Assembly: GCA_020621905.1 (NCBI GenBank)
Contig: JAHRYZ010000017.1
Location: forward strand, 1-33,385
Source: Rhizobium sp.
GTDB taxonomy: Bacteria > Pseudomonadota > Alphaproteobacteria > Rhizobiales > Rhizobiaceae
Length of the DNA stretch: 33,385 nt
Direction of reading: 5' to 3'
The position numbers were made by a program, and so were the translations under genes. The notes beneath the pieces are model-generated. The model was not told where the DNA came from. It did not search any database and worked only from the letters and a program-made list of their open reading frames with translations. Below are positions 1,880-12,875 of this stretch, one piece after another; the first letter of the stretch is position 1, and every line of letters begins with the position of its first letter.

Positions 1880-2353
1880 TCAGGCGACCAGCGACGCGGC
1901 GATGGCACCCAGCGCCTTCAGCGCATCTTGCGGCGAAAGCCGAATCTGGAGGCCGCGCTGCCCGCCGTTCATGTAGACCAGCGGTTCCGCCATCGACTCG
2001 ATCTCGATCGCCGTCGGCACAAGCTTCTTCTGGCCGAAGGGGCTGATCCCGCCGACCACATAGCCCGTCGTCTTCTCGGCCACCGCCGGCTTCATCATAG
2101 CCGCATGCTTGCCGCCGAAGGCGGCGGCGAGCTTCTTCATGCTCACCTCCTTGTCGGAGGGCACGACGACGCAGACCGGCTTGCCGTCGAGTTCGGCCAT
2201 CAGCGTCTTCAGCACGCGATGCGGCGCCTCGCCGATCGCCTCCGCCGCCTGCAGCCCGATGCGTTCGGCGTTCGGATCATAGTCATACGTCACGGTGGTA
2301 AAGGTCACCCCGGCCTTTTCCAGGAACTGGGTCGCGCGCGTCGTCTTCGCCAT
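1880..2353 (-). CDS. ybaK: Cys-tRNA(Pro)/Cys-tRNA(Cys) deacylase, YbaK/EbsC family
   Basis: A 157-residue single-domain protein, normal length for YbaK. These cytoplasmic enzymes hydrolyse Cys mischarged onto tRNA(Pro) after prolyl-tRNA synthetase makes the error. Family landmarks seen are the N-terminal ATQFLEKAGVTF, PSDKEVSMKKLAAAFGGK with the conserved lysine region, and TTGYVVGGISPFGQKKLVP, the most characteristic segment of the family. It starts four bases after the stop of the ArsC-like gene, so the two are almost certainly cotranscribed. The start at 2353 is preceded by GAAGG. Assignment to the trans-editing family is secure; exact tRNA specificity is inferred from homology. Confidence 0.92.
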   Translation of the reverse strand: MAKTTRATQFLEKAGVTFTTVTYDYDPNAERIGLQAAEAIGEAPHRVLKTLMAELDGKPVCVVVPSDKEVSMKKLAAAFGGKHAAMMKPAVAEKTTGYVVGGISPFGQKKLVPTAIEIESMAEPLVYMNGGQRGLQIRLSPQDALKALGAIAASLVA

Positions 2354-2357
2354 GAGA

Positions 2358-2708
2358 TCAGGCCTTCAAAGCAGCGGCGTAGATTTCCGGCTTGAAGCCG
2401 ATGAGCAGCGTGCCGTCAGCCTCCAGCACCGGGCGCTTGATCATCGAGGGCTGGGCGAGCATCAGGGTGATCGCCTTGTCCTGGTCGAGATCGAGCTTTG
2501 CCTCGCCGGGCACCTTCTTGAAGGTCGTGCCGGCGCGATTGAGCACGGTCTGCCAGCCGGCTTCGCCGCACCAGCGCTCGAGATGGTTCCGGTCAATCCC
2601 CGAGACCTTGTAGTCGTGGAAGGCATAATCGACGCCGTGCTCTTCGAGCCATAGGCGGGCCTTCTTCATCGTGTCGCAGTTCTTGATGCCGTAGATCATG
2701 GCGGCCAT
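2358..2708 (-). CDS. ArsC/Spx/YffB family thioredoxin-fold protein
   Basis: About 116 residues, beginning MAAMIYGIKNCDTMKKARLW. The single N-terminal cysteine in GIKNCDTMKKA and the later ...FKKVPGEA, SMIKRPVLEADGTLLIGF segments match the YffB branch of the arsenate-reductase-like ArsC family, which uses a thioredoxin fold. Despite the family name there is no arsenic operon here, so a general thiol/glutathione-dependent reductase role is more likely than arsenate detoxification (inference). The ORF track extends to 2837, but ATG 2708 has GAGGA at good spacing and gives the family-typical N-terminus. It is followed four bases later by ybaK. Confidence 0.88.
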   Translation of the reverse strand: MAAMIYGIKNCDTMKKARLWLEEHGVDYAFHDYKVSGIDRNHLERWCGEAGWQTVLNRAGTTFKKVPGEAKLDLDQDKAITLMLAQPSMIKRPVLEADGTLLIGFKPEIYAAALKA

Positions 2709-2837
2709 GGGATCGGTCCTCATCGACGCTGGGCGGGGAAGGCGGCGGCGGGCGACGCTTGTGAACTGACATAGCAAACCTCGGACGCTTTGCAAGCCGC
2801 GCACGGCCGTTGCAGCCGGCTGCGTCGGCTTCCACAA

Positions 2838-3644
2838 CTAGCCTCCAATGCTATCGGCGGCTTCCCTGGCCCGGTCGGCGGCGGCCTGCGCGTCTATGAT
2901 GGCTTGAACCGCTTCCTCTCGCCCGGTGGCGGCATGGCTTTTGGCCATCTGGGCAAAACCCGCAGCGGTCTGCGCAGAGGACTGCGCAGCGGCTCTCAAG
3001 GCCATGACCACTGGTTGGTCCCCTTTTGCTTCGGCCTCCTTGGCGTCGCGGGCCATGTTTTCGGCTTGGATAGCCATCTGATTGGCCGTGGCCGCAAGAT
3101 GCATGGCGAGCTGAGCCTCGTTCAGGCTGGAGACGGTCGAAGTGCCCCTGTCATTCATAAAAGTCGTGTCCCAATTCAATGCGGCGGCTGGCTCTATACA
3201 GTGTGTCTGCATGTAGGCTTGGAATTGTGCCGTCAGATCTGCCATCTTTTGGGAAACATTATCACGCGTTCGCGCAGCCTTTCCCAGTTCCACCCCATAG
3301 CCTACCCCCAGCTTGAAGCCCTCCTGCAGGCCGTCGCCAAATCCGAGACGTTCGTCGCCAGGCGAAAGTGCCTCCGGCGTCGGAACTTTCAGCAAGAGGC
3401 TCGACGGGTTCTCAACGGGGCTCTTAGACAAATCGTTGTAACCATCGACCACGCCGCGCAGCCAGCCGGGGTAGGCGCCTTTGCATGCGCCGCTATGAAA
3501 CTTCGTCGTGTCCCGATCGGCGAGAGCCGGCGACACGCCCCAAATGCTCATGCAGAGGGCAACGATGATCGCAAAGGCTGAGAGAGATGCCTTGGCGCTT
3601 GTTCTGCGAATGAAGCTCTCGACCCGCTCGACCTGCCATCTCAT
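2838..3644 (-). CDS. Exported protein of unknown function with Ala-rich helical C-terminus
   Basis: I do not recognise a family. The 268-residue protein starts at ATG 3644, where AGGGGAAG lies just upstream; the longer ORF in the track starts in non-coding sequence. Residues 1 to about 40 look like a Sec signal peptide (SAFAIIVALCMSIWGVSPALA, then DRDT). The mature N-terminal part holds a CKGAYPGWLRGVVDGYNDLS segment and a second cysteine in QTHCIEP, which could form a disulfide in the periplasm. From about residue 170 to the end it is alanine-rich and strongly helical, probably coiled coil (AQLAMHLAATANQMAIQAEN). Base composition is visibly less GC-rich than its neighbours, as is that of the adjacent divergent arr gene, suggesting a transferred islet. 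Function is unknown. Confidence 0.7.
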   Translation of the reverse strand: MRWQVERVESFIRRTSAKASLSAFAIIVALCMSIWGVSPALADRDTTKFHSGACKGAYPGWLRGVVDGYNDLSKSPVENPSSLLLKVPTPEALSPGDERLGFGDGLQEGFKLGVGYGVELGKAARTRDNVSQKMADLTAQFQAYMQTHCIEPAAALNWDTTFMNDRGTSTVSSLNEAQLAMHLAATANQMAIQAENMARDAKEAEAKGDQPVVMALRAAAQSSAQTAAGFAQMAKSHAATGREEAVQAIIDAQAAADRAREAADSIGG

Positions 3645-3815
3645 GTTGGCTTCCCCTGCTTGATGTCCGTCACTCTGCAGATGAGGGTAACCATCGGGCG
3701 CAGCACGGCAACCTGCATTGACCTGCATCAGCTTTTTCGGGCGAAATGGTGAGACGGTCGCAAGTCTCGAGCAGCACCTGTCGCCAGAAATTGGAGCCCT
3801 TGCCAGCATGATTGT

Positions 3816-3835
3816 CTAGCCCGATATGGGGCTAG
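3816..3835. repeat. Inverted repeat upstream of arr
   Basis: CTAGCCC-gatatg-GGGCTAG is a perfect 7-bp inverted repeat with a 6-base loop in the 254-bp divergent gap between the exported protein and arr, about 64 bases before the arr start. There is no T-run on either side, so an operator or RNA hairpin is more likely than a terminator. The gap also holds a tandem ACCTGCAT (3711-3718 and 3721-3728). Confidence 0.45.
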
Positions 3836-3898
3836 CAGCAGGCTGGGTGTCTGTCGCATGAACACCGTCCTCGATTCGTCAGAAGGAACCAAAGACCT

Positions 3899-4312
3899 AT
3901 GACAAATACAGCCAGCGCTTTTACCCGCCAGTTTTTTCATGGGACACGCGCAAATCTCGAACCGGGAGATTTGATCGTCGTCGGCTACCAGTCCAACTTC
4001 ACTGAAGCCAAGCCGCTATCCTGGGTGTATTTTTCAGGTACGCTTGATGCCGCGATCTGGGGCGCTGAGCTTGCTGCAGGCAGTGGGCGAGGGCGCATCT
4101 ATGTGGTGGAGCCAACCGGGCCAATCGAGGACGACCCGAACCTGACAGACAAGAAGTTTCCTGGAAATCCAACGCTATCGTATCGCTCCCGCGATCCGCT
4201 GCGAATTGTCGCCGAAGTGACAAAATGGCGGGGTCACCCGACTGAACAACTAGAGCAGATGAAGGCTAGCCTCGACCGCTTGAAGACAGAAGGTGCCGAA
4301 ATCATCGACTAG
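3899..4312 (+). CDS. arr: Rifampin ADP-ribosyltransferase (Arr)
   Basis: A 137-residue protein that matches the Arr family over its full length. Arr transfers ADP-ribose from NAD+ to rifamycins, inactivating them in the cytoplasm. The landmark segments FFHGTRANLEPGD, WVYFSGTLDAAIWGAELA, RIYVVEPTGPIEDDPN and KKFPGNPTLSYRS are all present. The family's catalytic His-Tyr-Asp set fits His14, Tyr44 and Asp79, the same spacing as His19, Tyr49 and Asp84 of the mycobacterial enzyme. The start has AAGGAA nine bases upstream. It is a single gene, divergent from an exported helical protein and convergent with guaA, with no integron or transposase nearby. Chromosomal arr genes are common in environmental bacteria, so the true role may be natural rifamycin defence (inference). 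Confidence 0.93.
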   Translation: MTNTASAFTRQFFHGTRANLEPGDLIVVGYQSNFTEAKPLSWVYFSGTLDAAIWGAELAAGSGRGRIYVVEPTGPIEDDPNLTDKKFPGNPTLSYRSRDPLRIVAEVTKWRGHPTEQLEQMKASLDRLKTEGAEIID

Positions 4313-4377
4313 GGCCGATCGACATTCAGATTTCTGACGTAGCGCGGTTGGATTTCGCCTCTGGGAAAAGCGAGCCC

Positions 4378-5940
4378 TCACTCCCACTCGATCGTGCCCG
4401 GCGGCTTCGACGTCACGTCGTAGACGACGCGGTTGATGCCGCGCACCTCGTTGATGATGCGGGTGGCGGCGCGGCCGAGGAATTCCATGTCGTAATGGTA
4501 GAAATCGGCGGTCATGCCGTCGACCGAGGTCACGGCGCGCAGCGCGCAGACGAATTCATAGGTGCGTCCGTCACCCATGACGCCGACGGTCTGCACCGGC
4601 AGGAGCACGGCGAAGGCCTGCCAAATGGCGTCGTAAAGGCCCGCCTTGCGGATCTCGTCGAGATAGATGGCGTCGGCTTCGCGCAGGATCTCCAGCTTCT
4701 CGCGCGTGATGCCGCCGGGGCAGCGGATGGCGAGGCCGGGGCCCGGGAAGGGATGGCGGCCGATGAAGCTGTCCGGCAGGCCGAGTTCGCGGCCGAGCGC
4801 CCGCACCTCGTCCTTGAACAGTTCGCGCAGCGGCTCGACCAGCTGCATGTTCATGCGTTCGGGAAGGCCGCCGACATTGTGGTGCGACTTGATCGTCACC
4901 GACGGGCCACCGGTAAACGAGACGCTTTCGATGACGTCCGGATAAAGCGTGCCCTGGCCGAGGAAGTCGGCGCCGCCGAGCTTCTTCGCCTCGTCCTCGA
5001 AGGTCTCGATGAACAGGCGGCCGATGATCTTGCGCTTGGTTTCCGGGTCGCTCACACCTTCCAGTTCGCCGACGAAGCGGTCGATAGCGTCGACGTGGAT
5101 GAGGTGCAGGTTGTAGTGTTCCTTGAACATGGCGACCACGTCGGCCGCCTCGTTCTTGCGCATCAGGCCATGGTCGACGAGAATGCAGGTCAGCTGGTCG
5201 CCGACGGCCTCGTGGATCAGCAGAGCCGCGACAGAGGAATCGACGCCGCCCGACAGCGCGCAGATGACGCGTTTGTCGCCGACCTGGTCGCGAATGGCCT
5301 GCACCGCCTTGGCGCGATACGCCGACATGGTCCAGTCGCCCTTGAGCCCGGCGATCTTGTGGATGAAGTTGCCGATCAGCTTGGCGCCGTCCGGCGTGTG
5401 CACCACTTCCGGATGGAACTGCACGGCGTAATATTTGCGCTTCGCGTCAGCGATGAAGGCGAAGGGGGCGTTGGACGAGGTGGCGACGACCTCGAAGCCC
5501 GGCGGGATCGCGGTGACGCGGTCGCCATGGCTCATCCAGACCTGGTGGCGCGAGCCGGCCGACCACAGGCCCTCGAACAGCGGGCATTCCTTGTCGATCT
5601 CGAGGAAGGCGCGGCCGAATTCTCGGTGATGGCCGCTTTCGACCTTGCCGCCGAGCTGGGCGCACATCGTCTGCTGGCCGTAGCAGATGCCGAAGATCGG
5701 CAGGCCGCTGTCGAAGATCACCTGGGGTGCCCGCGGGCTTCCCTCGTCCAGGGTCGAAGCCGGGCTGCCCGACAGGATGATCGCCTTCGGTTTCAGCCGG
5801 TGGAAACCTTCCTCGGCGGACTGGAAGGGGACGATTTCGCAATAGACGCCGGCTTCGCGCACGCGTCGTGCGATCAGCTGCGTTACCTGGCTGCCGAAAT
5901 CGATGATGAGAACGCTGTCGGGATGTGCTGTCTGGGTCAT
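4378..5940 (-). CDS. guaA: GMP synthase (glutamine-hydrolysing)
   Basis: A complete 520-residue GuaA, the usual length. It converts XMP to GMP using ATP and ammonia from glutamine, the last step of guanine nucleotide synthesis. The N-terminal class I glutamine amidotransferase domain (about 1-195) has the nucleophile Cys86 in GICYGQQ and the His176/Glu178 pair in FHPEV. The ATP-pyrophosphatase domain follows with the P-loop SGGVDSS at 230-236, and the C-terminal dimerisation domain ends in the conserved KPPGTIEWE. The start is preceded by AAAGG. It lies 79 bases downstream of the MTA/SAH nucleosidase gene on the same strand. The 574-aa plus-strand ORF over it is an antisense shadow. Confidence 0.98.
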
Positions 5941-6019
5941 GGCGAGCCTTTAATGAAAAGCGCGGATTCTTTCAATCGGAGAATTGTGCCGATTGTCCGC
6001 AATTCCGGTGCTTTCGGGC

Positions 6020-6658
6020 CTAGAACCAGAACACGCCGTCTTCCAGCGCTTCGAACAGGGTGTCGACGGTGAGCGCCAGCTTGCGATCGACGACGTGGAG
6101 ATATTCCTTCCAGTCGTCGACATGCTTCAGTTCCTGCTTGCCGTCGGAAATGCCGCGCAGCCCGATCAGCGGCAGGTTGAAGGCATGGCAGGTCCTGAGG
6201 ACGGCGAAGGTTTCCATGTCGACCATGTCGGCGTCGATCGCGTCATAGGTGGCGCCCGAAACGATGTTGGCACCGGTCGAGAGGCTGGCGGTCGGCACGC
6301 CGGGAATACGCAGCGGCAGTTCGAGCGCCGCCGGCAGATCGAGAAACGGGGTGCGCCCCTTCTCGAAGCCGAGCGGCGAGGCATCCATGTCGCGATAGGA
6401 GACGGACGATGCCTGATAGATCTCGGTCTGCTCCAGCCTGGCCGAGCCGGCCGAGCCGAGCGAGACGACGAGGTCAGGCCGCTCGTTCTGTTCCTCGAGT
6501 TTCGAAAGCGTGCGCGTCAGCGAAATCGCGGCCTCCACGGGGCCGACGCCGGTCATCAGCGGTTCGATCCGCGAGCGCAGGAACGAACCGTATTCGGCCT
6601 CGACCGCCATGACGAACAGGATCGATTTGCCTGATACCGACTTGAGTTCGAACGTCAT
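6020..6658 (-). CDS. 5'-methylthioadenosine/S-adenosylhomocysteine nucleosidase-type phosphorylase
   Basis: A 212-residue member of the PNP/UDP phosphorylase superfamily, MTAN branch, starting MTFELKSVSGKSILFVMAVE. It should cleave the glycosidic bond of MTA and/or SAH, recycling adenine and the methylthio sugar. Visible landmarks are the early Glu in MAVEAEYG, TGVGPVEAA, VSLGSAGS, the substrate-site VDMETFAV, and the catalytic aspartate in RGISDGK. The longer track ORF (7156) is a misread; ATG 6658 overlaps the upstream thioesterase stop in an ATGA, showing translational coupling. Which of MTA, SAH or a related nucleoside it prefers cannot be decided from sequence. Confidence 0.88.
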   Translation of the reverse strand: MTFELKSVSGKSILFVMAVEAEYGSFLRSRIEPLMTGVGPVEAAISLTRTLSKLEEQNERPDLVVSLGSAGSARLEQTEIYQASSVSYRDMDASPLGFEKGRTPFLDLPAALELPLRIPGVPTASLSTGANIVSGATYDAIDADMVDMETFAVLRTCHAFNLPLIGLRGISDGKQELKHVDDWKEYLHVVDRKLALTVDTLFEALEDGVFWF

Positions 6659-7189: not shown

Positions 7190-7642
7190 CTAGTTCATGA
7201 GGAAAATCGAGGCGTTGAGCAGGGTGGCGAAGGCGACCCAGGCGGCATAAGGCAGGAACAACAGTCCGGCCACCCGGTCGAGCGGCCCGGCCTTCCAGAT
7301 GAACCCCAGGATGGCGATCAGAATCGCCACGATCAGCAACAGCGCCAGACCGGTTGCCTGAAGGCCGAAGAAGGTCGGCGACCAGAGCATGTTGAGGGCG
7401 ATCTGGGCAAACCAGATCTGCATCGCGGCAGATGCCGGCGCGACCAGCCAGATGCGGGCGCCGGCAATGGCGATCATCACGTAGAGCACGGTCCAGACCG
7501 GCGCGAAGATCCAGGGCGGCGGGTTGAAGAACGGCTTCTCCAGCGACTGGTACCATTCGCCCGGCATGTTGGAGACGCCCGAGAGAATGCCGAGCCCGAC
7601 GACGGCCGCGATGAAGACGAGATAGGTGACGAACTTGCGCAT
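7190..7642 (-). CDS. tspO: TspO/MBR family protein
   Basis: A 150-residue integral membrane protein with five predicted transmembrane helices, the normal TspO/peripheral benzodiazepine receptor fold. Diagnostic segments are WYQSLEKPFFNPPPWIFAPVWT between helices 1 and 2, the Trp-rich NMLWSPTFF, and LPYAAWVAFATLLNASIF near the C-terminus. TspO proteins bind and may degrade or export porphyrins, and in alphaproteobacteria affect tetrapyrrole and stress responses. It begins only 44 bases after the end of the DUF1513 gene on the same strand, so it may be the last gene of the imelysin/di-heme operon (inference). No strong ribosome site is visible before ATG 7642. Confidence 0.93.
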   Translation of the reverse strand: MRKFVTYLVFIAAVVGLGILSGVSNMPGEWYQSLEKPFFNPPPWIFAPVWTVLYVMIAIAGARIWLVAPASAAMQIWFAQIALNMLWSPTFFGLQATGLALLLIVAILIAILGFIWKAGPLDRVAGLLFLPYAAWVAFATLLNASIFLMN

Positions 7643-7686
7643 GGCGTGAACATAGGGCGCCGTAGCTCTCCGCCAAGGCCACCGCC

Positions 7687-8768
7687 TTACGAAAGGCGGA
7701 CGATATGCTGGTCCCAGGCGACCGGGCTGCCGTTTGCGCCGAAATGGCCGTCATAGAGGACACGGCAAAGCCGGAGGCCGCCGGTGCGATGCCGGCCGCA
7801 TCGGCGACGGTGGTGGTCGTGACCACCGCGCCGCTCCGTCCGTCGATGGTGACGGCCAGCCCGCCCTTCGGCGAGGCGATGCCGATAAGACCGTCGCGCC
7901 GGTTGACGGCGATGGCGCCGACATAATTGGCAAGGCCTCTCGTCACCGCGTCGGGAAGGGACACGAAGGAAAGCGCCTCGCCTTTGGAAAAATGCCCGAC
8001 CAGTGGCGGCATGTCGTTGCGCGAGCCTTCATACTGGCAGGCGAACCAGGCGCGACCGTCCTGGTCCACATCCAGATGCCGGGTCGACAACTGGCTGAAC
8101 TCGTGCGGCATGACATGCTTTTCGATCAGCGCACCGCTCGCCGCATCGGCGATCACCAGGGAGGGTTCCATGCGATCGAGGTTGAGCTTGGTGCGGCCGA
8201 AATCCGGATGGGTCTCGATCCCGCCATTGGCGATGATCAGCAGGCGGCCGTCGTCGCTGACCGTCATGTCGTGCGTGCCGATGCCATGGGCTTCGAACTC
8301 GCCGATCCGGCGGAAACCATCCGTGGCGTCATAGATGCCGATCATGCCGCGATTGGCGTCGAAATCGTTTTCGCTGGCATAGAGCAGCCGGCCGTCCGGC
8401 GAAAAGTGCCCGTGGCCGAAGAAGTGCCGGTCGGCCGGCGCGGCGATCACGATCGGTTCGCTGCGTCTGCGTGCGTCGAAGATGACCGCAAAGGTACCGG
8501 GACGTCGGGCGAAGGCGACCGAGAGGCCTGTCGCCGGGCTGTGGCCGAGGCCGTGAATGCGGTCCGGCAGATCGATCCGGTCGATGAAGGTGCCGTCCTC
8601 GGCGACCAGGCCGATACCGAAAGTTCCGTCCGGCGCGCGGAAGCCGGAGGCAAAGACCGCATCGCTGCGCTCGAGCGCGAAGAGCGCACGCGGCGAAAGC
8701 GAGGCGAGGAACAAAGCCCCCGCCGCCTTGATGAAGGATCGCCTGTCGATCAGCGCCGATCGCCGCAT
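7687..8768 (-). CDS. Tat-exported DUF1513 beta-propeller protein, frameshifted near the 3' end
   Basis: Begins MRRSALIDRRSFIKAAGALF, a clear twin-arginine signal (Arg9-Arg10, S/T-R-R-x-F-x-K pattern), so the protein should be exported folded. The body shows WD40/YVTN-like blade repeats (FSPDGRLLYASENDFDANRG, DMTVSDDGRLLIIANGG) and matches DUF1513, a family that travels with imelysin and DUF1111 genes. The reading frame breaks near 7755-7760: after GFAVSS the in-frame translation reads nonsense through tspO, while a one-base shift restores YDGHFGANGSPVAWDQHIVR and a stop at 7687. With one base added the protein would be 360 residues. This is probably a single-base deletion or sequencing error. 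The gene starts one base after the stop of the second imelysin gene. Molecular function is unknown. Confidence 0.82.
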
Positions 8769-8769
8769 C

Positions 8770-9873
8770 TCAGTCTCCGTCGGAGAAGGAGAAACCGGCG
8801 GCAAGGCCGATCGCGCCGCCATAGTCGTTGTTGAGGCGAAGGATCAGATCCTTGCTGTTGAGCAGCAGGAAGTCGAGCTTGGCGCGCTCGGCCGGATCGC
8901 TGACGGCCGCCTCGACGTCCGGATTGATGTCGTCGGCCACCCTCTCGAGCGACTTGGCGACGAAATCGATCGACGAGACGATGGAGCGCGACTCGTCGTT
9001 CAGCAGGTCGACCATGGCCGACTGCTTCATCAGGCTGCGCAGGCCCTCGATATTGCCGTGGATCGAGGTGAAGGTATTGCCGGAGCGCCAGTAGATCGCC
9101 TGCTTGGGAAAGGTGTTGTTCTCCTCGCCCTTGTAGAAGGTTTCGATGCGCTGGTCGCGAATCGCCTCAGCCCCATGGACCAGAATGCCGAGCAGGGCGG
9201 TGATCGCCTCGCGGCCGTCGCGGAACTCGGGATTGTCGGGGCCGGGGTGCTTCCAGGCACCCTGAATGCCGTCGGGCTTGTCCCATGCCTCGGCGAGTTC
9301 GCCGCCGAGCCGCACCAGATTGCCGGCGATCGCCGCGCCGTAGCGGCAGCGGAAGCCTTCCTTCTCCTCGACGAGCCCGTCGGATCCCGTGCCGAAGAGC
9401 ACGAATTCGAGCGCGCCGAGCCCCTGCATGGCGACGCTCTTGTCCTTCAGCGTCTCGACCGAGGTCGCGCTTTCGTCCGGCTTGGCGAGAATGGCCTGAA
9501 CCTGTTTCAGGCCTGTGCTCTTGCGGTCGGGGTAGAAGAGAATGCGCTCAAACCGGTTGGCCTCGATCACCGGACCGACGCGGACGATTTCGATCGTCGA
9601 CCATGCCGCGACCGTCTCATCGAAGGCACCCCGGACGACATCGAGGGCATCGGCCGACGGCGCAGCGCAGAGCGCGCGCAGATCGGTCTCGAGAGCCGCC
9701 GAGGCGTCGCGGAAGCGGTGGTAGCCGGGGCGGATGAAGCCATCGACAGCCTTTTCCATCACGGCCTGGATCGCCTCGCTCTTCAGCGTAGGCGGCGCGA
9801 GATCGGCATCCTGCGCCGCCGCCGGCGCGGCAAGGCTGAGAGCGGTGAAGATGCCGAGGAGGAAAGGCTTCAT
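8770..9873 (-). CDS. Imelysin family protein (peptidase M75-like), second copy of the operon
   Basis: A 367-residue exported protein with a signal peptide cut after about residue 20 (LSLAAPAAAQDAD). The imelysin domain spans the rest. In place of the GxHxxE motif it has GLGALEFVLFG (residues 151-161), so the motif histidine is missing; this GALEF form is common in the second imelysin of such operons. Members are periplasmic or membrane-associated, linked to iron in several bacteria, and are related to the M75 domain of EfeO. The gene overlaps the DUF1111 stop by four bases (ATGA) and is followed one base later by the DUF1513 gene. A metal-binding or chaperone role beside the di-heme enzyme is inferred; proteolysis is doubtful. 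Confidence 0.9.
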   Translation of the reverse strand: MKPFLLGIFTALSLAAPAAAQDADLAPPTLKSEAIQAVMEKAVDGFIRPGYHRFRDASAALETDLRALCAAPSADALDVVRGAFDETVAAWSTIEIVRVGPVIEANRFERILFYPDRKSTGLKQVQAILAKPDESATSVETLKDKSVAMQGLGALEFVLFGTGSDGLVEEKEGFRCRYGAAIAGNLVRLGGELAEAWDKPDGIQGAWKHPGPDNPEFRDGREAITALLGILVHGAEAIRDQRIETFYKGEENNTFPKQAIYWRSGNTFTSIHGNIEGLRSLMKQSAMVDLLNDESRSIVSSIDFVAKSLERVADDINPDVEAAVSDPAERAKLDFLLLNSKDLILRLNNDYGGAIGLAAGFSFSDGD

Positions 9874-11402
9874 AGGGACTCCAGAAAGGCGACGAGCGCC
9901 TTGCGATCATCGGCCGCAAGGCCTGCAAAGGTATCACGGGCGGCCTGCGCCTCGCCGCCGTGCCAGAGGATGGCTTCCGTAAGGTTGCGCGCGCGGCCGT
10001 CATGCAGGAAGAAGGTGTGGCCGTTCACCCTCTCGGTCAGACCAATACCCCAGAGCGGTTGGGTGCGCCACTCTCGACCGCTCGCATCGCCGACCTGCTG
10101 GCCGTCGGCGAGACCCTCGCCCATGTCGTGCAGCAGGAAATCGGAATAGGGCCAGATCAGCTGGAACCGGTGCGCCTTGTTCTCCGCCTTGCGGCTGGTC
10201 ACGAATTTGGGCGCGTGGCAGGCGACGCAGCCTGAGGCGTAGAAAATCGTTTTGCCTTTGAGCACGGCCGGATCGTCGATGCTGCGCCGGGCCGGCGGCG
10301 CGAGGTTTTCCGAATAGAAGGTGACGAGCTCGAGCACCGGGTCGGGGGCTTCCGTCTCGCCGAGCCGCTTCTGCACGCCGGCCGGCATGGCCAGGCATTT
10401 CGCCTCCGCTTCCGTGCAGTCTCCGAAGGGATGCGGCGCGTCCGGGGTCGATATGCCGATGTCGCCCTTGAAGGCGCTGGAACTCTGGTCGCGCACCGAG
10501 GCGTTCTGCGCCTTCCAGCCGAAACGGCCGAGCTTCAGTTCGCCGGTGCGATGATCGCGGGCGCGGGCCGCGCGGCCGGAAACCCCGTCTCCATCCCGAT
10601 CCTCGGGATCGGCCCGGGCGAGAATGTCGGCATCGGCAATCGCCTGAATCAGGCCCATGCCGATCATCGGAGTGGCGACGCGCGGCGACAGTGTCGTATC
10701 CGGGGCGAGCGGTCCGTAGGCGAGATCGGCGACGCTATAGTGCGGCCGGCGCAGCGACACGGTCTCTCCGCCGGCTAACGTCACGGGCTCTTCCGCATAG
10801 GTGATGACCATCCGCCCCTCGGCGGCGAGGCCGGGCACGGCGAGATCCTGCAACTGGCCGCCATAGGTCGGGTCGGGGAAGTTGACCGCCTTGATGTCGG
10901 CAACTGCCCGGCGTTCATTCTCGGTCCGTGTCGGGCGGGCGAGGCGGAGGAACATCGAGGTTGAGTCGGCCGCACCTTCCGGCGGATGGCCGCGTCCGTC
11001 CTTCAGGTGGCAGCTCTGGCAGGCGCGCGCATTGAACAGCGGCCCGAGACCGTCGGAGGCCTGCGTGGACGACGGCGAGGAGACCCAGAACTTGCGGAAC
11101 AGCGCATTGCCGAGCTTGAACGTCTCCTCTTCGGAGAAGGTGATATTGGACGAGAAATGCGAGAAGGCATCGCCGTTGACCGGCTGGGTGGACGTCGCCG
11201 CGCCGCCCTGCATCCGTTCGAACGGTTCCGCCTTGGAAAAATCGCTCGTTCGGCTCGTGACCGTCTCGACGCGCTTCAGGTCCTTCGGCGACAGATCCGT
11301 CCGCCGGATCGCATCATCGGCCAGCGCCGCGCCGAGGGCGGCGAAGGACAGGCCGGTTGCGAGCAGCAGATTCCGGGGGATGCGGGCGGTCATGCGGGAC
11401 AT
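9870..11402 (-). CDS. Di-heme oxidoreductase family protein (DUF1111), c-type cytochrome
   Basis: A 510-residue exported protein with a signal peptide near residues 10-29 (LLLATGLSFAALGAALA). Two c-type heme sites are visible: CQSCH at 128-132 and CVACH at 392-396. Between them lies a calcium-type loop DPEDRDGDGVSGRA (about 266-279), typical of the DUF1111 'di-heme oxidoreductase' family. These periplasmic proteins resemble di-heme peroxidases in layout, but their reaction is not established. It sits between two imelysin genes and is coupled by ATGA to the second. The start is uncertain: neither ATG 11402 nor ATG 11393 has a good ribosome site, and a strong hairpin lies 12 bases upstream, so initiation may depend on translation of the preceding gene. 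Confidence 0.9.
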   Translation of the reverse strand: MSRMTARIPRNLLLATGLSFAALGAALADDAIRRTDLSPKDLKRVETVTSRTSDFSKAEPFERMQGGAATSTQPVNGDAFSHFSSNITFSEEETFKLGNALFRKFWVSSPSSTQASDGLGPLFNARACQSCHLKDGRGHPPEGAADSTSMFLRLARPTRTENERRAVADIKAVNFPDPTYGGQLQDLAVPGLAAEGRMVITYAEEPVTLAGGETVSLRRPHYSVADLAYGPLAPDTTLSPRVATPMIGMGLIQAIADADILARADPEDRDGDGVSGRAARARDHRTGELKLGRFGWKAQNASVRDQSSSAFKGDIGISTPDAPHPFGDCTEAEAKCLAMPAGVQKRLGETEAPDPVLELVTFYSENLAPPARRSIDDPAVLKGKTIFYASGCVACHAPKFVTSRKAENKAHRFQLIWPYSDFLLHDMGEGLADGQQVGDASGREWRTQPLWGIGLTERVNGHTFFLHDGRARNLTEAILWHGGEAQAARDTFAGLAADDRKALVAFLESL

Positions 11403-11414
11403 GGTGAGGGAGTC

Positions 11415-11442
11415 CGGGCCATCGGAAAGGTCCGATGGCCCG
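11415..11442. other. Strong intercistronic hairpin between imelysin and DUF1111 genes
   Basis: CGGGCCATCGG-aaaggt-CCGATGGCCCG is a perfect 11-bp stem with a 6-base loop. On the plus strand it is followed by CCTTTTTA, so it has intrinsic-terminator shape for antisense transcription. On the operon (minus) strand no T-run follows; there it could protect the imelysin mRNA 3' end or limit DUF1111 translation. Confidence 0.7.
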
Positions 11443-11452
11443 CCTTTTTATC

Positions 11453-12733
11453 TTATTGGAATACGGCGTTAGGATTATCGAGGCTGTCGGAACCTTCAAG
11501 CTCGATCGTTCCGAGATCCAGCGACGCAATGACGCGCTCGATGGTCTTGGTCTGGTCGATCAGCCCGTCGATGGCGGCCTGGACGGTGGCGTTGCCCTCC
11601 GCATTGCCTTCGCCGATCATCTGGTCATAGGCCTCGACCGTCTCGGCGCGCTTGGCCATGGCGTTCATCGCGTCGAGGGTTTTGGTGAGCTTCGCCTTCA
11701 TCTCGGCGTCGAGGGCTGCATCCTTGGCGGCGACCAGTTCCGAGAGCGAAGGGCCGGTCATCTTCGTGCCGTCGGCGCGGGTGTATTCGCCGGTATAGGC
11801 GGACGCGATGCCCACGGCGTCGTTGAGGTGCGAGGCATGCGTGTTGTCGGAGAAGCAGTCGTGCTCTTCTTCCGGGTCATGCAGCAGCACGCCGAGCTTC
11901 ATGCGCTCGCCGGCGAGTTCGCCGTAGGACAGCGACCCCATGCCGGTGAGGATGGCGGAGATGCCGGCCTTCGGATCGGCGGTCACGGTCTTGGTCGCTT
12001 CGCCGTCCGGCGCCCAGGCGGTGACCATTTCCTGGAGATCGGAAACCAGCAGCGTGGAGGCGGCCTTGAGATAGGCGGCGCGGCGGTCGCAATGGCCGTT
12101 GGTGCAGTTCTTGGTGTCGAAGTCGGTATAGGCGCGGTTGCCGGCGCCGGGGCCCGTGCCGTTGAGGTCCTGGCCCCACAGCAGGAATTCTATGGCATGG
12201 TAACCGGTCGCCACATTGGCTTCGATCTCGCCGGCTTCATGCAGCGTCTCGGAGAGGAATTCCGGCGTGATCTTGGTGGCGTCGACATCCTTGCCGTTGA
12301 TCTTCAGCTTGGGGTTGGCGATCACATTGGCGACGAACAGGGCGTTCTCGTCGCTCTCGGTGCCGTAGGAGGCGTCGACATAGTCGATCAGGCCCTCGTC
12401 GAGCGGCCAGGCGTTGACCTTGCCTTCCCAGTCGTCGACCACGGCATTGCCGAAGCGATAGACTTCCGACTGCTGATAGGGCACGCGGGCCTTGATCCAG
12501 GCGGCGCGCGCGGCCTTCAGCGCCTCATCGCTCGGGGTGGCGATCAGCGCGTCGACGGCGGCGTCGAGCGCCTTGGCGGTGTTCAGCGAGTCCTCATACT
12601 TGGCATGGGCCAGCGCCGCATAGTGATTCAGCACCGCGGCCGCATCGGTCGCGGCAGCTGCGGGGCCGGCCATGAAGCTTGCCGAGGCAATCAATAGCGC
12701 GAACGAGGCGCCAAGAATGGATTTGCGGGACAT
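11453..12733 (-). CDS. Imelysin family protein (IrpA-like, peptidase M75), first gene of the operon
   Basis: A 426-residue exported protein. Start ATG 12733 has GGAGA four bases upstream; the longer track ORF is wrong. The signal peptide is MSRKSILGASFALLIASASF with a likely cut after GPAAAA near residue 28. The imelysin motif GxHxxE is intact as GYHAIEFLLWG (177-187). Other family segments are VYRFGN, NAWPLDEGLIDYVD and CFSDNTHASHLND. Imelysin-like proteins such as cyanobacterial IrpA are iron-regulated; the related M75 domain of EfeO binds metal. As first gene of a four-gene operon with a DUF1111 di-heme enzyme, a second imelysin and DUF1513, it is probably part of periplasmic iron handling (inference). 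It is separated by 142 bases from rsmB, which holds a candidate promoter. Confidence 0.93.
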   Translation of the reverse strand: MSRKSILGASFALLIASASFMAGPAAAATDAAAVLNHYAALAHAKYEDSLNTAKALDAAVDALIATPSDEALKAARAAWIKARVPYQQSEVYRFGNAVVDDWEGKVNAWPLDEGLIDYVDASYGTESDENALFVANVIANPKLKINGKDVDATKITPEFLSETLHEAGEIEANVATGYHAIEFLLWGQDLNGTGPGAGNRAYTDFDTKNCTNGHCDRRAAYLKAASTLLVSDLQEMVTAWAPDGEATKTVTADPKAGISAILTGMGSLSYGELAGERMKLGVLLHDPEEEHDCFSDNTHASHLNDAVGIASAYTGEYTRADGTKMTGPSLSELVAAKDAALDAEMKAKLTKTLDAMNAMAKRAETVEAYDQMIGEGNAEGNATVQAAIDGLIDQTKTIERVIASLDLGTIELEGSDSLDNPNAVFQ

Positions 12734-12782
12734 GGTCTCTCCTTCGACGCTTGCGCGCCCTCTCCGTGAAACGAACGACCTT

Positions 12783-12811
12783 GTCTTGGCGGAAAAAGAA
12801 ACTGGTGTCAA
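12783..12811 (-). promoter_or_regulatory. Candidate promoter of the imelysin operon
   Basis: On the minus strand TTGACA (12806-12811) is a perfect -35 hexamer; 17 bases on lies CAAGAC (12783-12788) as a weak -10. This precedes the imelysin start by about 50 bases. I looked for Irr (ICE) or RirA (IRO) boxes here and found no convincing match. Confidence 0.35.
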
Positions 12812-12875
12812 ATAGTCGAGAATCGAAAAGCGCTCCCCGCTTTGCGGTTCGTCAAGTCCGGCCGGGGGATGCGCC

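Follow-up and report, generated by a model that had tools for sequence, protein, structure and literature searches.

An imelysin operon, with a promoter-like element before it and a tspO gene after it, occupies positions 7,190 to 12,814 of the 33,385-nucleotide stretch of Rhizobium sp. DNA analysed here (the window; contig JAHRYZ010000017.1 of assembly GCA_020621905.1). The operon encodes an imelysin (imelysin-1), a di-heme c-type oxidoreductase of the DUF1111 family (DHOR), a second imelysin (imelysin-2) and a DUF1513 beta-propeller, and the start of a tspO gene lies 44 bases past the DUF1513 stop at 7687 (Table 1). Families were assigned by Pfam, with every match far above the cut-off, and these assignments bear out the four families and TspO as a preliminary description had named them; the sequence motifs it named are also present. 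That description also took the four genes to be tightly coupled. DHOR and imelysin-2 do overlap by 4 bases, and imelysin-2 and DUF1513 are separated by 1 base, but the gap between imelysin-1 and DHOR is 50 bases. Because the best named-genome match is Ciceribacter selenitireducens (98% identity for imelysin-1, 96% for imelysin-2, 95% for tspO, 94% for DUF1513 and 93% for DHOR), the DNA is assigned by sequence similarity to Ciceribacter or a close relative within the Rhizobiaceae.

The four-gene arrangement is an old, stable unit and not a product of chance, because most genera of the Rhizobiaceae and other members of the phylum share its order. Within the Rhizobiaceae, one genome was surveyed for each of 81 genera. 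A long DHOR match is present in 49 of these genomes, a full DUF1513 in 50 and both in 48, and the two genes are close together by coordinates in 47 of the 48. The exception (genome G040) carries imelysin-1 and DHOR on one contig and imelysin-2 and DUF1513 on another (loci L023 and L072), which suggests two sub-modules. Among 119 mapped sequences, window included (75 syntenic and 44 non-syntenic), the order imelysin-1, DHOR, imelysin-2, DUF1513 is almost constant. A phylum-wide sample of 249 genomes was also searched for DUF1513, and all 20 loci fetched from outside the Rhizobiaceae have the same four genes in the same order, with DUF1513 last. The genes, for which the preliminary description had proposed a gene-neighbourhood survey, are thus together in 47 of the 48 Rhizobiaceae genomes with both DHOR and DUF1513 and in 20 of 20 phylum-wide loci.

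Table 1. Features of the imelysin operon and its surroundings in the window.
Feature	Positions	Strand	Family match, motifs and remarks
imelysin-1 (IrpA/ICMP type)	11453..12733	minus	PF09375, 3e-90; Sec-type signal peptide; GYHAIE 12188-12205
DHOR (DUF1111 di-heme c-type oxidoreductase)	9870..11402	minus	PF06537, 2.9e-93; CQSCH 11007-11021; CVACH 10215-10229
imelysin-2 (IPPA/PA4372-type variant)	8770..9873	minus	PF09375, 4e-49; GALEF 9403-9417 replaces GxHxxE
DUF1513 beta-propeller	7687..8768	minus	PF07433, 2.2e-106; twin-arginine signal RRSFIK 8727-8744
tspO (clade-specific neighbour)	7190..7642	minus	PF03073, 2e-40; Pfam match and synteny
Intercistronic hairpin	11415..11442	minus	12-base-pair stem, 4-base loop; no T tract on transcribed strand
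Promoter-like element	12782..12814	minus	TTTGACAC-CAGTTTC...CAAGAC (TTGACA, 17 base pairs, CAAGAC); upstream of imelysin-1

Several loci carry further genes in or next to the operon. In 27 of them, from Mesorhizobium, Hoeflea and relatives, imelysin-1 and DHOR are separated by genes for bacterioferritin, bacterioferritin-associated ferredoxin (Bfd) or both, as they are in Rhodobacter sphaeroides. An FbpA-like solute-binding gene is upstream in loci L188 and L198, accompanied in L188 by an FbpB-like permease (Fbp names partly by eye), and a SodB-like gene precedes the operon in two phylum-wide loci. Other variations also were observed. A CorA-family transporter gene, identified by Pfam in the L043 protein, separates imelysin-2 from DUF1513 in L037, L039, L043 and L044. 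Imelysin-2 is duplicated in tandem in L045, L145 and L146, imelysin-1 is downstream of DUF1513 instead of first in L064, and L199 has one operon with two adjacent DHOR genes. Between imelysin-1 and DHOR, L190 contains an ApbE-like flavin transferase gene (2035-6133; named by eye) and L188 a small DUF1289 gene (4995-5246). A di-heme peroxidase gene is located downstream of DUF1513 in L198 (CCP_MauG by Pfam) and in L194, whose protein is similar-looking.

Imelysin-1 matches the ICMP structure (PDB 7xrx, 2.9e-111), and GYHA(I/V/T)E is present in 112 of 112 relatives. By comparison, the histidine of this motif is missing from all 25 of the commonest imelysin-2 variants listed among 112 relatives (GALEF, TALEY and similar). 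Imelysin-2 weakly matches the IPPA structure (PDB 3pf0, 7e-4), which likewise lacks the histidine. Both window imelysins match PF09375 alone and have no cupredoxin domain. The two CxxCH motifs of DHOR are invariant in relatives; Pfam gave PF06537 and weak cytochrome c matches with none to PF03150 (CCP_MauG), and a profile search of the PDB returned a short cytochrome c stretch only. The DUF1513 model is a beta-propeller whose matches include Escherichia coli YncE and subunits of hydrazine synthase and quinohemoprotein amine dehydrogenase, and its twin-arginine motif is kept in relatives.

Upstream of imelysin-1 there is a conserved element of the TTGACA-N17-CAAGAC type that includes TTTGACACcAGTTT. 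Its TTTGACAC core is found in 76 of 118 relative loci, and a longer promoter pattern occurs once per genome in four genomes. The Irr-box consensus is TTTAGAA-N3-TTCTAAA, and the positive-control genes found with it also support this form. Matches at 11 to 12 of 14 positions occur in 48 of the 76 loci with the core, including most Rhizobium and Agrobacterium copies, compared with about 0.5 of 76 in shuffles; the 48 loci are related and do not represent 48 independent events. Most of these sites share one position, 25 bases upstream of the core, and in some non-syntenic loci an Irr box lies upstream of a different TTGACA. Allowing at most one mismatch, the pattern also finds mbfA-, NfuA-, cysteine-desulfurase (iscS)-, CcpA- and siderophore-binding-protein-like genes (names by eye), and the reversed pattern found none of these positive-control iron genes in the same genomes. 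The RirA IRO box and the Fur box show no excess over shuffles upstream of imelysin-1. The Ciceribacter clade, window included, has lost the Irr-box-like site.

EfeU-type FTR1 permease genes (E value below 1e-50) are found in none of the 48 genomes with the operon and in 7 of the 33 without it (Fisher p = 0.0012, an indicative value given that the genomes are related); weaker FTR1 matches do co-occur with the operon. Iron handling by the operon is well supported because bacterioferritin genes are present in 27 loci, Irr-box-like sites precede the promoter in most Rhizobium and Agrobacterium copies and EfeU-type permeases do not co-occur. The preliminary description had offered copper as an alternative metal, and no copper evidence was found for the operon.

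Published homologues respond to iron. The PA4370-4373 operon of Pseudomonas aeruginosa is regulated by Fur; Xu et al. 2011 drew a comparison between it and EfeUOB, and periplasmic iron handling was already proposed for it (PMC3143127). In R. sphaeroides, irpA, bfd and bfr are upregulated under iron limitation (PMC3413700, PMC4176601). There, RSP_1545-1543 reportedly share a transcript with hemP-irpA-bfd-bfr and respond to the repressor IscR, and RSP_1545 is annotated as a "thiol oxidoreductase with 2 cytochrome c heme-binding sites" (PMC4618611). The iron regulon of Vibrio cholerae includes VC1264 and VC1266, and VC1265 shifts together with VC1264 in an iron-uptake regulator study (PMC5816637, PMC7600106). 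In Leptospira, imelysin-thiol peroxidase-imelysin genes are responsive to iron limitation and to peroxide (PMC7567364, PMC8638851). Iron-limitation induction or iron-regulon membership of the R. sphaeroides, V. cholerae and Leptospira homologues agrees with the view of the preliminary description, periplasmic iron handling by a system with a c-type di-heme protein and no linked permease. That description called the biochemistry undescribed, which holds; the operon itself has been published in P. aeruginosa, R. sphaeroides, V. cholerae and Leptospira.

The window closely resembles PA4370-PA4373 (which includes ICMP) and VC1264-1266, in which DUF1111/DHOR is likewise flanked by a first imelysin with GxHxxE and a second with GxxxxE. 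The window has these features in the same order, with DUF1513 (frameshifted, see below) last, and neither it nor these operons have a linked EfeU. However, imelysin-1 carries a plain signal peptide and P. aeruginosa ICMP has been described as a lipoprotein, and PA4370-PA4373 is Fur-regulated whereas no Fur box was found in the window. Both tspO and the hairpin were seen in Rhizobiaceae copies only, the hairpin having been looked for only there. The R. sphaeroides hemP-irpA-bfd-bfr-RSP_1545-1543 operon, also alphaproteobacterial and induced by iron limitation, contains irpA, a di-heme "thiol oxidoreductase" and two more genes in the same order as the window, which lacks hemP and bfd-bfr. No HemP-like small frame was found upstream in the mapped loci, although the pattern used was simple and could have missed one. 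Regulators also appear to differ: an IscR Iron-Rhodo-box in R. sphaeroides, an Irr-box-like site in Rhizobium and Agrobacterium, and none recognisable in the window.

The ferrous iron transporter EfeUOB/EfeM also combines a periplasmic M75-domain HxxE protein with a periplasmic heme protein. Unlike EfeUOB, the operon is accompanied by no FTR1 permease (PF03239) in its own genome, which is 88% complete, and the window imelysins lack the N-terminal cupredoxin domain of EfeO. Its heme protein is a PF06537 DHOR with no DyP match, whereas EfeB is a DyP-type heme peroxidase; EfeB is placed in the DyP family in PMC3577903 and called a DUF1111 member in PMC3143127. The LIMLP_14170-14180 (LruB) operon of the spirochaete Leptospira, which is peroxide- and iron-responsive, encodes an imelysin, a cytochrome-type thiol peroxidase and an imelysin, a layout similar to that of the window; the comparison covers these three genes. 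The two conserved CxxCH motifs of DHOR are predicted heme sites, and the protein does not match PF03150, the domain of the CCP/MauG di-heme peroxidases.

The GC-rich hairpin in the imelysin-1/DHOR gap is conserved in structure and not in sequence. A stem-loop beyond the 99th percentile of shuffles is present in 67 of 78 imelysin-1/DHOR gaps of 25 to 100 bases. The set contains 57 different left arms, and each stem position shows more than one Watson-Crick type, that is, pair-preserving changes. An intrinsic terminator was considered and rejected for the window, where the T tract is on the plus strand, opposite to the operon. Because the transcribed strand has no T tract, the hairpin is best read as a 3'-end-protecting or processing element that might raise the level of imelysin-1 over the downstream genes.

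Together, these observations suggest that the locus is probably the form that the imelysin (irpA/icmP) operon takes in Ciceribacter and the Rhizobiaceae, and that this operon is a self-contained module for acquiring iron in the periplasm when iron is limiting. Imelysin-1 would capture iron, as Fe2+, Fe3+ or a small complex, in the cleft between its two helical bundles where GxHxxE lies. DHOR would then perform a redox step, either Fe2+/Fe3+ interconversion or a peroxide-linked oxidation, and imelysin-2, with its histidine lost, and the propeller, exported by the twin-arginine route, may be scaffold or electron-transfer partners. Iron might next be handed to a permease encoded elsewhere, perhaps FbpABC-type or FeoB and not FTR1. 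By stabilising the message or terminating part of it, the hairpin after imelysin-1 could keep the binding protein more abundant than the redox proteins.

Several points weigh against this reading. Thermofluor assays showed no binding of heme or ferric ion by PIBO or IPPA (PMC3143127), and the permease of the proposed pathway would have to be supplied from another locus. The window has no recognisable Irr, RirA or Fur box (its best Irr match, 7 of 14, is at chance level), and because of this its regulation by iron would be argued by homology only. The putative redox role of DHOR comes from its CxxCH motifs and family membership, because its AlphaFold model (predicted local distance difference test score 73, with heme regions poorly modelled) yielded no PDB fold match. 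The role given to the hairpin is likewise a deduction from its structure, and the DUF1513 gene of the window copy is frameshifted.

An alternative, which we consider rather unlikely, is that the operon serves peroxide or oxidative-stress defence tied to iron. DHOR would be a peroxidase, and the imelysins would sequester iron against Fenton chemistry and not for uptake. Consistent with this, lethal H2O2 induces the imelysin-thiol peroxidase-imelysin genes of Leptospira, whose expression is also higher in a perRA perRB double mutant (PMC7567364, PMC8638851), and the irpA response of R. sphaeroides to iron limitation depends partly on OxyR and is stronger when oxygen is present (PMC4176601). The bacterioferritin genes within the operon in 27 loci would also fit. 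However, iron starvation induces homologues in several groups according to published work, which points to acquisition, and the Irr-box-like sites lie upstream of the -35 element, whereas Irr represses mbfA-type storage genes from sites that cover the start region.

An improbable variation on iron acquisition is that DHOR acts in the manner of MbnH or MauG. It would oxidise a conserved tryptophan or tyrosine in a partner encoded by the same operon (imelysin-1, imelysin-2 or the propeller), and a metal site would thereby be built. If this were true, the operon would encode an iron-binding system that matures itself, and the lack of iron binding by recombinant imelysins produced on their own could be explained.

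The position of tspO raises the possibility of a heme or porphyrin handling module in which TspO takes part, as the preliminary description had proposed. The gene is adjacent to or near the operon in 50 of 75 syntenic loci, the R. sphaeroides operon is headed by hemP (PMC4618611), and DHOR is a di-heme protein. Nevertheless, tspO is near the operon in none of 44 non-syntenic Rhizobiales loci and none of the 20 phylum-wide loci, and its presence in the 81 genomes is not associated with that of the operon (p = 0.16). In the syntenic clade, the operon is flanked by an rsmB-like gene on one side and a thioesterase-nucleosidase-guaA block on the other (rsmB and nucleosidase by eye); tspO heads this block, which is conserved also where tspO is absent. 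Moreover, the imelysin pocket is too small for heme unless its conformation changes, and heme was unbound in assays (PMC3143127). The link to porphyrins thus finds no backing, and a heme module seems quite improbable. Instead, tspO looks like a bystander neighbour and not a part of the iron system, although it may be cotranscribed with the operon.

The frameshift in DUF1513, which the preliminary description missed, could in principle mark an operon that is losing function in this organism. At TCCTC-TATGAC (7748-7760), the alignment shows one base fewer than in five relatives, near 7752. As assembled, the frame continues to 7101, across tspO. The C. selenitireducens protein is intact and ends in YDGHFGANRSPVAWDQHIVRLS, and the window counterpart of this end lies in another frame, whose stop is the one at 7687. 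The clade's loss of the Irr-box-like site would also be expected of a decaying copy. However, no such damage is seen in the other three genes, which are intact and share 93-98% identity with their C. selenitireducens counterparts. Because the source assembly is a draft of 455 contigs with 88% completeness, an assembly or sequencing error is likely, and likelier than a real frameshift, which makes decay very unlikely. Separately, DHOR is in two reading frames in genome G007 (C1:959574-960904), possibly another frameshift or a real break. The least probable explanation is an M75 zinc metallopeptidase system. The names given by MEROPS and to ICMP, and the Pfam name Peptidase_M75, suggest one, and the ICMP match of imelysin-1 might favour it, but structures argue that imelysins are not HxxE metallopeptidases (PMC3143127) and imelysin-2 lacks the histidine in the relatives examined.

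Both the operon and its response to iron have been published before, and the claim of discovery is correspondingly modest. In the Rhizobiaceae the operon appears to take the place of EfeUOB, and more widely it is an uncharacterised iron module that is common in Pseudomonadota. Its function can be tested directly in tractable rhizobia and laboratory Agrobacterium strains, given the nearly invariant gene block, the inserted bacterioferritin genes, the Irr-box-like sites and the hairpin conserved between imelysin-1 and DHOR.

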